Assembly: GCA_903862565.1 (NCBI GenBank)
Contig: CAIOYU010000643.1
Span: forward strand, 1 to 36,036
Reading direction: 5' to 3'
DNA: 36,036 nucleotides
DNA from: an uncultured Actinomycetes bacterium
Lineage (GTDB): Bacteria; Actinomycetota; Actinomycetes; Mycobacteriales; Mycobacteriaceae
The notes below the pieces were generated by a model. It ran no database searches. It had not been told where the DNA came from and worked only from the letters and a program-made list of their open reading frames with translations. This document shows, in pieces, positions 5,940-27,607 of the stretch. The translations under genes were made by a program, and so were the position numbers. Every line of letters begins with the position of its first letter. Positions within the stretch are counted from its first letter, which is position 1.

Positions 5940-7753
5940 CGACAACGGTGCTTGCCTACATTCCGAGTCCCGCGCAGGGCGTCTGGCATCTGGGCCCGAT
6001 ACCGATTCGGGCCTACGCGCTGTGCATCATCGCCGGCATCGTCGCTGCTCTGCTGATCGGCGACCGGCGCTGGACGGCACGCGGCGGCGAACCCGGCGTC
6101 ATCTATGACATCGCGTTGTGGGCGGTCCCGTTCGGCTTGATCGGCGGCCGGCTGTATCACGTCATGACGGACTGGAAGACCTATTTCGGTCCGGGTGGAG
6201 CCGGTCCCGCTGCGGCACTTCGGATCTGGGAGGGTGGCCTCGGGATCTGGGGTGCCGTTGCGCTTGGCGCAGTGGGAGCGTGGATTGCCTGCCGCCGCAG
6301 GGGGATTCCCTTGCCCGCGTTCGGCGACGCCGTGGCGCCGGGCATCGTGCTGGCGCAGGCCATCGGCCGGTTGGGCAACTATTTCAACCAGGAACTTTAC
6401 GGCCGTGAGACAACCGTTCCCTGGGGCTTGGAGATCTTCTACCGGCGGGATCCGTCCGGGGTCGTCGACGTCCACTCTCTTGACGGGGTGTCGACCGGGC
6501 AGGTGGCCGCGGTTGTGCACCCCACCTTCCTTTACGAACTGCTCTGGAACCTCTTGGTTTTCGCTGTTCTGCTGTGGGCCGACCGCAAGTACCGGCTGGG
6601 TCACGGCCGCTTGTTCGCGTTGTACGTCGCGCTGTATTGCGTCGGTCGGTTCTGGATCGAACTGATGCGTGACGACGCGGCCACGCACATCGCCGGCATC
6701 CGCATCAACGTGTTCACCGCGACTTTCGTCTTCATCGGCGCAGTGGTCTACATGCTGCTCGCGCCCAAGGGCCGGGAGGATCCGGCGTCTCTGCGCGGCA
6801 AGCCAGTGGTAGCGCACCAGCACGAGTCGCTCACCGAGGAACTGGCGGCTGTTGCCAAGGGCAGTGGACTCATTGCGGCCGCGACGGTCGCCGGCGAGCA
6901 CGAGGCCGAGGATGCTCTCGCCGTCGGCGATGTCGAGGTGATCCCCGCCGACAGCCTCGTCGTGCAGTCAACGGCGGCGGAGGTAGTCGAATCGGACGCG
7001 GTGGACACCGCGACACAGATCGTCGAGACGGAGACGTCCGACGGTGCCGTGGTCGTCGAGACCGGCGAGGTCGTCGAGGCCGTCGAGCGTTCGGACGACG
7101 GCGATGCAGACGACACCATCGTCGTGTACTCCGCGCCGGTCGAGACGGACACCGTCCTGGTCTACGAGTCAGCCGACGAACCGGACTCTGAGGTTGTCGT
7201 GACTGAGACTGTTGTGACCGAGGCGGCCGAGTCTGAGGCGGCCGAGTCTGAGGCTGTTGTCACCAGCGCTGTCGTGACCGAGGCGGTCGTGACCGAGGTT
7301 GTCGAGTCTGAGGCTGTTGTCACCGAGGTTGTCGAGTCTGAGGCTGTCGTGACTGAGACCGTCGTCATTGATTCGGGTGACGCCGAGGTGCCCGAGAGTG
7401 ACACGATCGTGCATGACGCAGTCGTCACGGACGCGGTGAGCAGTGACACCGTGGTGATCGAGTCAGGGGCTGATGACTCGGAGGCAGTCGTTTCGGAGAC
7501 GGTCGTGTCCGACGACCCGCCTGCTGATGCCGTGGTGGTCGTCACCGAAGCCGTGGTCGTAACCCAAGCCGTGGTCGTCACCGAGGCCGAGGCAGTCGAA
7601 GCCGAACTGGCGCCTGGGCCGAAAGCCGTCCCCGCGGTTGAACTCCACCCGGAACCGAAGGCCGAATCCGCATCTGTGGTAGCCGACGATGAAGCCCCGA
7701 AACTGGGCTCGACGTTCAAGCGGTTGCTGTGGGGCGCGGGTAAGCGGGACTGA
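5936..7753 (+). CDS. lgt: Prolipoprotein diacylglyceryl transferase with about 320-residue acidic repetitive C-terminal extension
   Basis: GTG start overlapping trpA stop; '[13 protein letters not shown]'-type region, '[20 protein letters not shown]' Lgt signature, '[12 protein letters not shown]'; V/E/T/S/D-rich tail after about residue 285. Confidence 0.95.
7220..7351 (+). repeat. In-frame coding tandem repeats within the lgt tail
   Basis: 15-bp unit gaggcggccgagtct at 7220-7234 and 7235-7249; 30-bp unit accgaggttgtcgagtctgaggctgttgtc at 7292-7321 and near-identical copy at 7322-7351 ([10 protein letters not shown]). Confidence 0.85.
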
Positions 7754-18456: not shown

Positions 18457-18684
18457 TCAGGCCTCGGACAGCGCGCGGTACAGCGTCGAACGGCCAACCT
18501 TCAGCGTCTCCGCGACATCACCGACGCGGTGACCGGCGGCGACCAGCGTCCGCGCCTGGGCCAGCTGATCGGCGGTCACCACCTCGCGGCGGCCGACTTT
18601 CACGCCTTCGGCCCGGTCCCGCAGCTTGGCGTGGGTGCCGGCACTGACTCTGACGCTAAGGACGACGCCCGGCCAGTTGGGCAT
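18457..18684 (-). CDS. Small HTH protein resembling the C-terminal DNA-binding domain of serine recombinases, preceded by an RHH-like stretch
   Basis: 'LSVRVSAGTHAKLRDRAEG' + 'VKVGRREVVTADQLAQARTLVAAGHRVGDVAETLKVGRSTLYRALSEA'; no catalytic serine recombinase domain seen. Confidence 0.5.
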   Translation of the reverse strand: MPNWPGVVLSVRVSAGTHAKLRDRAEGVKVGRREVVTADQLAQARTLVAAGHRVGDVAETLKVGRSTLYRALSEA

Positions 18685-18713
18685 CGAGGACGCCCGGCCA
18701 GTTGGGCATCGAG
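18664..18713. repeat. Perfect 25-bp tandem duplication
   Basis: gacgcccggccagttgggcatcgag at 18664-18688 and 18689-18713. Confidence 0.95.
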
Positions 18714-25850: not shown

Positions 25851-27164
25851 TCAGCGCGCCACAATCACCGACGAGCCGTGACCGAACAAGCCCTGGTTTG
25901 CGGTGACGCCGACGGTGGCGCCCTCGACCTGTCGCCCGTCGGCCTGCCCGCGCAACTGCCAGGTCAGTTCACACACCTGCGCAATCGCCTGAGCCGGGAT
26001 CGCCTCGCCGAAACAGGCCAGGCCGCCGGACGGATTGACCGGAATGCGTCCACCGACCGCGGTGGCGCCCGACCGCAGCAACTGCTCGGCCTCGCCCTTG
26101 GCACACAGGCCCAGGTGCTCGTACCAGTCGAGTTCCAGCGCGGTGGACAAGTCGTAGACCTCCGCCAGGCTCAGGTCCTCCGGTCCGATGCCGGCTTCGG
26201 CGTAGGCGACATCGAGGATGTGGTCCTTGAACGCCCGATCGGGGGCAGGCACGACGGCGGTGGAATCGGTGGCGATGTCGGGCAGCTCGGGCAGGTGCTG
26301 CGGGTAGACCGGCGTCGCGCAGGACACCGCCCGCACCGACGGCACCCCGGCCGTCGACCCCAGGTGTTTCTCGGTGAAGGCCCTGCTCGCCACGACCAAC
26401 GCGGCCCCGCCATCGGAGGTGGCGCAGATGTCCAGAAGGCGCAGTGGGTCGGACACCACCGGGCTGGCCAGGACGTCGGCGATCGAGCTTTCCTTGCGGT
26501 AGCGGGCATTCGGGTTGTTCAGTCCATGGCGGGAGTTCTTGACCTTCACCGCCGCGAAGTCCTCCAACGTCGCGCCGTACAGGTCCATCCGGCGGCGGGC
26601 CAGCAGCGCGAAGTAGACGGTGTTGGTGGCGCCGATCAGGTGGAACCGCTGCCAGTCCGGGTCGGTGCGGCGCTCCCCGCCGACCGGGGCGAAGAACCCC
26701 TTCGGGGTGGTGTCGGCGCCCACCACCAGTGCCACGTCGCACAGCCCGGCCAGGATCTGCGCCCGGGCGGACTGCAGGGCCTGGGACCCCGACGCGCACG
26801 CGGCGTAACTCGACGACACAGGAATGCCGGTCCAGCCCAGTTTCTGGGCGAACGTTGCACCGGCGACGAAGCCCGGATAGCCATTGCGGATGGTGTCCGC
26901 GCCGGCGACCAGCTGGATCTGTGCCCAATCCAGGCCGGCGTCGCGCAGCGCGGCTCGGGCAGCGACGACGCCGTAGTCGGTGAAGTCGCGGCCCCATTTG
27001 CCCCACGGGTGCATGCCTGCGCCGAGGATGTAGATGGGATCCGGCGGGTAGGAGCGGAGCGACCCGGGGAGCGGATCCGGCGGGTAGGAGCGGAGCGACC
27101 CGGGGAGCGGATCCGGCGGGTAGGAGCGGAGCGACCCGGGGAGCGGATCCGGCGGGTAACTCAT
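25851..27164 (-). CDS. Thiolase-like lipid-transfer protein (SCP-x/Ltp family) with repeat-derived N-terminus
   Basis: 'SSYAACASGSQALQSARAQILAG', 'NPSGGLACFGEAIPAQAIAQV', 'GLFGHGSSVIV'; ATG overlaps upstream TGA. Confidence 0.9.
   Translation of the reverse strand: MSYPPDPLPGSLRSYPPDPLPGSLRSYPPDPLPGSLRSYPPDPIYILGAGMHPWGKWGRDFTDYGVVAARAALRDAGLDWAQIQLVAGADTIRNGYPGFVAGATFAQKLGWTGIPVSSSYAACASGSQALQSARAQILAGLCDVALVVGADTTPKGFFAPVGGERRTDPDWQRFHLIGATNTVYFALLARRRMDLYGATLEDFAAVKVKNSRHGLNNPNARYRKESSIADVLASPVVSDPLRLLDICATSDGGAALVVASRAFTEKHLGSTAGVPSVRAVSCATPVYPQHLPELPDIATDSTAVVPAPDRAFKDHILDVAYAEAGIGPEDLSLAEVYDLSTALELDWYEHLGLCAKGEAEQLLRSGATAVGGRIPVNPSGGLACFGEAIPAQAIAQVCELTWQLRGQADGRQVEGATVGVTANQGLFGHGSSVIVAR
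27037..27158. repeat. 36-bp perfect tandem repeat (3 full copies plus 14 bp)
   Basis: ggatccggcgggtaggagcggagcgacccggggagc at 27037-27072, 27073-27108, 27109-27144, partial 27145-27158; encodes (SYPPDPLPGSLR)x3. Confidence 0.97.
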
Positions 27165-27607
27165 TGCGCCACCCTCCAGGCGTAGACGGAGCGCTCGACG
27201 CCGTCGTCGTCCAGATACAACGGCATCGTGGTCAGTTCCATCTCCACACCGACTTTCAGATCAGCAGCCAGCGTGCCGTCGGCGACCTTGCCCAGCACAA
27301 TGATCCCCTCGTCGGCCAACTGCACCGCGGCGATCGCGAACGGCTCGAACGGCTCCTGCTGCGGGTACGGGGGCGGTGGCTGGTAGCGGTTCTCGGTGTA
27401 GCTCCACAAGGTGCCGCGCCGGGAAAGCGCCACCGGCTCCAGTTCGTCGGCCTCGCAATTCGGGTTCGGGCAATTGCCGGCCCGCGGCGGGAAGACGTAC
27501 GTCCCGCAGCCCGGGCACTTCGCGCCGGCCAGATGGGGGGCGCCGGAATCATCGAAGGCCCACCAACCGTCGATGGCGGGGGAGTCTGGCACTCGCGAGT
27601 CCGACAC
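27161..27607 (-). CDS. DUF35 OB-fold, zinc-ribbon acyl-CoA-associated protein
   Basis: 'HLAGAKCPGCGTYVFPPRAGNCPNPNCEADELEPVALSRRGTLWSYTENRY'; GTG 27607 chosen; the 1005-aa ORF in the track is extended upstream antisense to polA. Confidence 0.88.
   Translation of the reverse strand: MSDSRVPDSPAIDGWWAFDDSGAPHLAGAKCPGCGTYVFPPRAGNCPNPNCEADELEPVALSRRGTLWSYTENRYQPPPPYPQQEPFEPFAIAAVQLADEGIIVLGKVADGTLAADLKVGVEMELTTMPLYLDDDGVERSVYAWRVAQ

Follow-up and report, generated by a model that had tools for sequence, protein, structure and literature searches.

Mycobacterial minisatellites, such as the MIRU-VNTR and ETR loci, are tandem repeats of tens of base pairs whose copy number is potentially variable. 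Most known cases of small repeats that invade protein genes in frame come from Rickettsia, Wolbachia, and certain Proteobacteria rich in REPs. The Rickettsia palindromic elements (RPEs; Ogata 2000) are small dispersed repeats of 105 to 146 bp that lie between genes and also fused in frame within conserved protein genes, where they are tolerated, and their presence varies between species (PMC2229807). REPs, with their GTAG and CGTC families and RAYT transposases, are dispersed, high-copy sequences of 20 to 40 bp; some stand in tandem together with the DNA that flanks them, and some lie within ORFs or N termini (PMC3733652).

We analyzed a 36,036-nucleotide stretch of DNA (the window), which is one whole contig (C643) of a 781-contig draft, with 5.6% contamination, from the genus Mycobacterium in the broad sense. 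It carries a tandem array of a 36-bp unit at the start of a thiolase-like gene. Like the RPEs, this mycobacterial element occurs between genes and in frame in moeA, dacB, FAS-I, and an MBL-fold hydrolase gene, and its presence varies between species. Unlike them, it is 36 bp long and not palindromic, and its arrays run head to tail in steps of 36 bp. Judged by its sequence, the element works like the RPEs and is not a member of that family. It shares with REPs a short length, high copy number, and dispersal, with some copies in tandem and some in ORFs or N termini. However, it lacks a palindrome (z about +1) and a consistent GTAG or CGTC tag, has no link to RAYT/Y1 proteins, and is found as aligned in-frame copies in five genes, all in one genome, that serve core metabolism or the cell envelope. 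Identity with the REP/RAYT system was rejected because the element is non-palindromic and has no transposase association. The thiolase array itself resembles a minisatellite or VNTR in that its near-identical tandem units are locally homogeneous; between species, the site holds zero to three copies. Unlike MIRU-VNTR and ETR loci, however, the unit recurs across the genome as 36-bp insertions into unrelated sites and also occurs as single intragenic copies. The present case combines a mycobacterial host, a shorter non-palindromic unit, filled and empty pairs at conserved genes, and the lack of an obvious transposase.

The array at the thiolase start

Tandem Repeats Finder (TRF) placed the array at positions 27037 to 27158 of the window, with a period of 36, 100% match, and a score of 244, above every other tandem array in the window; its copy number of 3.4 is as given by the 781-contig draft assembly. 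The array consists of three 36-bp units and a 14-bp partial unit. A sequence-only reading had described a perfect repeat encoding M-(SYPPDPLPGSLR)x3-SYPPDP directly ahead of the enzyme's conserved start, and the TRF result and the minus-strand ORF confirmed both points. Defined by the consensus of 135 single copies and by pattern matching, the element cores lie on the plus strand in element orientation. The first, CCGGCGGGTAGGAGCGGAGCGACCCGGGGA, is at 27041 to 27070, an identical copy at 27077 to 27106 follows GCGGAT, a 6-bp spacer specific to the array, and a third, also identical, is at 27113 to 27142. A partial fourth core, CCGGCGGGTA (27149 to 27158, plus), is an in-register echo of the element start and is the equivalent of the native -PxP- codons in empty orthologues. 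Matches to the core in the window are confined to this array (3 with at most three mismatches versus 0.28 expected by chance). Two other repeats in the window are a perfect 25-bp tandem duplication at 18664 to 18713, which is not a multiple of three and lies where ORFs overlap and code poorly, and a degenerate 15/30/60-bp array with the unit GAGGCTGTCGTGACC at 7187 to 7365, which probably encodes a Glu/Ala/Val/Thr-rich stretch.

The host gene (25851 to 27164 including the stop, minus strand) encodes a 437-residue thiolase-like lipid-transfer protein of the Rv1627c type. It scored 778 bits against the NF004715/PRK06059 family model, above the curated cutoff of 424, it matches Pfam Thiolase_C_1, and its closest solved structures are SCP2-thiolases. 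The NF004715 match spans residues 41 to 437, and the repeat-derived insert of 36 residues (residues 2 to 37) is therefore outside the family model. The ORF begins MSYPPDPLPGSLRSYPPDPLPGSLRSYPPDPLPGSLRSYPPDPIYILGAGMHPWGKWG, and the conserved protein starts with IYILGAGMHPWGKWG directly after SYPPDP. Upstream is the gene for its DUF35/OB-fold partner (27161 to 27607, minus strand), of the Rv1628c type and with a weak match to BbsA. The thiolase ATG (27162 to 27164, minus strand) overlaps the DUF35 stop (27161 to 27163) as ATGA, as the sequence-only reading had stated, and a Shine-Dalgarno-like GGAGGG lies 7 nt upstream of it (27172 to 27177, minus strand). There is no in-frame ATG, GTG, or TTG between this ATG and the conserved core. 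Across 90 genus orthologues, the thiolase starts at this junction too, and most of them also share the stop/start overlap; those that are empty open with M(S/T)PEPVYILGAG or similar. Because the orthologues share the start junction, a Shine-Dalgarno sequence is present, and no later start codon exists, the repeat is almost certainly translated, which supports the earlier view that translation was probable. An AlphaFold model of the thiolase, made from a shallow alignment (mean pLDDT, 35), was uninformative for the N terminus.

Comparing orthologue N termini, as the sequence-only reading had proposed, showed one to three element copies at this site in 11 of the 90 genus members, with the window's own gene counted in. 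On a tree of 30 genes, parsimony required six changes of this trait, at least three of which are forced by well-supported branches. Two sequence types occur at the site, PGSLRSCPP near the window's species and SPESLRSGPP in other lineages, and their sequences point to separate gains. In the window, the best reading of the three identical copies is a single insertion followed by local amplification. Three other species (L034, L264, and L270 in G078, G154, and G197) have another short insert, GCGGACGCGAGGAGC-like, in the stretch from the DUF35 gene to the start of the thiolase; it may represent a second dispersed repeat family at this junction.

Anatomy and range of the dispersed repeat

When the 122-bp array was used as a query against its own genome, related arrays and single copies appeared on many contigs. 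These copies share a common core in unrelated contexts, some in tandem and some at contig ends. The pattern GGAGCGNAGCGACYSGGG gave 29 exact matches in this genome. With the stricter pattern GGNNGGAGCGNAGCGACYSGGG, 100 of 198 genus genomes were positive, with a maximum of 138 copies (G160), and a reversed-pattern control gave no match in any of the 198; as pattern searches with an exact core, these counts underestimate degenerate copies. An order-wide sample had 21 positive genomes among 399, all from the genus except one from another genus of the family. That one was the single positive among about 40 genomes of the family's other genera, and no genome from other families of the order was positive in the sample. 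The idea of a minisatellite bound to this gene was thus half right: the array is tandem, but its unit is not private to the gene and belongs to a genus-wide dispersed family that lies in frame in many genes.

Named matches were chiefly to Mycolicibacterium and Mycobacterium, with one Nocardia, some uncultured Actinomycetes, and some Burkholderiales. In the Burkholderiales (L134, L144, L147, L153, L187, L190, and L193), the same 22-nt core, GGCAGGAGCGNAGCGACTGGGG, is embedded in a GC-rich repeat of greater length that resembles a terminator (GGCGCCCCTCGGGGGCAGGAGCGAAGCGACTGGGGGGC and similar) and is found in Piscinibacter, Albitalea, Rubrivivax, and Rhizobacter. This likeness may stem from shared origin or from convergence, and the reading of the element given below does not account for it. 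Carriage by phage or plasmid was rejected, since viral contigs had no pattern match, no phage hit was found, and plasmids gave two weak hits, both in unrelated Proteobacteria. An Rfam search gave no match for the element. Searches of the open-access literature by core sequence, encoded peptide, and topic found no description of it; a description elsewhere is possible.

Alignment of the 135 single copies showed a sharp-edged 30-bp core, CCGGMGGGCAGGAGCGNAGCGACYSGGGRA, followed by about six weakly conserved bases. In two complete genomes, 24 of 37 array steps were exactly 36 bp and the remainder were 34 to 39 bp. When homologous loci were compared by their 300-bp flanks with the element removed, the gaps clustered around 0, 36, 72, and 108 bp, which indicates that the inserted unit is 36 bp, single copies included. 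We rejected selection for reading frame as the source of this period, since intergenic arrays are also mostly 36 bp. Within arrays of the two complete genomes, 48 of 54 pairs of units were identical, whereas only 4 to 16% of pairs between loci of one genome were; arrays therefore grow locally. These numbers bear out the earlier proposal that zero divergence in the thiolase array reflects recent expansion.

At the edges of the element, the four bases to its left match the bases 36 bp downstream more often than in shuffled pairs (z about +4, independently in singles and in arrays), and position +25 shows an excess of CCGG. Both features are compatible with ends that carry a direct repeat or microhomology. 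The flank echo is statistical and not universal: the clean 36-bp gain at dacB left no target duplicated. Where a MITE would have a target-site duplication, the element shows in-register flank similarity.

Copies inside genes

Alignment of filled and empty orthologues located in-frame copies in the window's genome. In moeA, a 3 × 36-bp insert reads ELTDAG-(GQERSDPGNRAG)x3; it is absent from the other genus orthologues displayed and from other families, and a structural model predicts its residues 120 to 153 to be disordered (pLDDT below 50) and the remainder to be mostly confident. A single unit of exactly 36 bp sits between GGCGG and AATGGAC in dacB, and an MBL-fold hydrolase gene carries 2 × 36 bp. 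A single copy in FAS-I adds a net 39 bp, and 20 or more relatives are empty. The aftA gene also contains 2 × 36 bp in frame. In another genome, the FAS-I gene (L432, in G005) carries at the exact position of the element an insert, VRRGGSEGTRRSGSDTE, that is either different or strongly decayed, which suggests an insertion hotspot or an old copy.

Beyond these five aligned genes, intragenic sites rest on a codon-usage classifier, which placed 31 of 177 sites within genes, 62 between same-strand frames (mostly gene junctions), and 24 between opposite strands, and left the rest unclear. Among the 30 intragenic actinobacterial sites, orientation was 26:4 in favor of the plus direction of the element, and 22 of the 30 copies are read in one frame, which encodes GGQERSDPG. 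Copies between genes were oriented nearly at random (35:25; P = 0.25). This near-random intergenic orientation, together with the excess of one frame in genes, indicates that insertion orientation is near random and that proteins filter the outcome. Each unit in a protein gene adds 12 codons in frame, as anticipated from the observation that 36 bp preserves the reading frame. All six frames of the element are open unless the N of the consensus is T, which gives TAG in one frame, and T is the rarest base at that position.

Origin and spread of the element

From these comparisons, the unit is likely to be a micro-element, dispersed and non-palindromic, that belongs to Mycobacterium in the broad sense, including Mycolicibacterium, and that inserts, amplifies locally, and is filtered by what proteins tolerate. 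It stands at many unrelated loci and in both orientations, and its presence at a site differs between relatives in 36-bp steps. The element is probably neutral or selfish and no functional part of the enzyme.

The main rival is a nonautonomous transposon, micro-MITE or REP-like, mobilized in trans by a putative transposase, which we regard as possible, if on balance doubtful. The fixed 30- to 36-bp unit with sharp edges, its two orientations, and the short direct-repeat-like echo that flanks single copies are consistent with such an origin, for which REPs and RPEs are precedents. However, unlike in a MITE, there are no terminal inverted repeats in the element consensus, neither end of which carries a GTAG or CGTC tag; the core and the unit fold no better than dinucleotide shuffles (z from +1.5 to −0.2); and dacB lacks the classical target duplication. 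The Y1/IS200/RAYT-type transposase family (PF01797) was present in 36 of the 198 genus genomes overall versus 7 of the 31 with at least 20 element copies; it is thus absent from 24 of these 31 and not clearly commoner there, and the window's genome does not have it.

A functional DNA or RNA site spread by selection, such as a protein-binding motif, a terminator, or an mRNA element, would account for the many copies at gene junctions and for the terminator-like look of the related Burkholderiales repeats. We think this unlikely, since copies interrupt highly conserved coding regions in moeA, FAS-I, aftA, and dacB, and site occupancy is erratic between relatives. A replichore-skewed motif of the Chi or KOPS type was rejected on the full lists from two genomes that start at dnaA, where the strand bias was not significant (35 of 57; P = 0.11), and the lack of an Rfam match also speaks against a functional site.

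Replication slippage of sequence native to the thiolase gene, with no mobile element, is improbable as the origin of the repeat. The copies are perfectly identical, the native start already has CCGCCGG-like codons, and the homogeneity within arrays fits local slippage, but the same 30-bp core stands at dozens of unrelated loci in this genome and in 100 of 198 genus genomes, with no match to the control. Dispersion refutes a private minisatellite as the full explanation; slippage still holds for the growth of one copy into three. No more credible is a selected protein module, a linker or tag: the strong preference for GGQERSDPG in genes would suit it, but at least five of the six frames are used there, the thiolase reads the opposite strand, most copies are outside genes, and the host proteins are unrelated. 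An assembly artifact is the least credible of all, because independent genomes carry the element at orthologous loci and the same arrays, with as many as four copies, occur in two genomes whose chromosomal contigs, of about 6.1 Mb, start at dnaA, even though the window's assembly is a draft with contigs that end in the element.

If the unit is a dispersed micro-element, its history at the thiolase would begin with insertion into the native M-S-x-x-P-E/D-P start codons, and one copy would then become three, either by slippage or because flanking direct repeats recombined unequally. Most insertions that disrupt or damage proteins would be lost, and the survivors would resemble flexible polar linkers or N-terminal extensions. 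Least certain is how new copies arise: a 36-bp unit may be copied from an array by template switching or by integration of short single-stranded DNA at CCGG-like microhomology, and the element may spread with no dedicated transposase. We favor this route over a transposase acting in trans. The full proposal, in which a genus-specific element copies single units from arrays at CCGG-like microhomology without a transposase, and a length of 12 codons together with the tolerated GGQERSDPG frame permits its entry into essential genes, is offered tentatively.

The repeat also matters in practice. Contigs C530, C713, and C490 of the window's draft (G000) begin or end inside element copies, and the element is probably one cause of fragmentation when genomes of this group are assembled from short reads. 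It can also pass for a conserved N-terminal peptide or a gene-specific minisatellite. Many of the mycobacterial hosts are culturable environmental species; with this, the short non-palindromic unit, the filled and empty pairs, and the lack of an obvious transposase, how such repeats move becomes directly testable. If the proposal is true, a selfish micro-repeat would repeatedly extend mycobacterial proteins.
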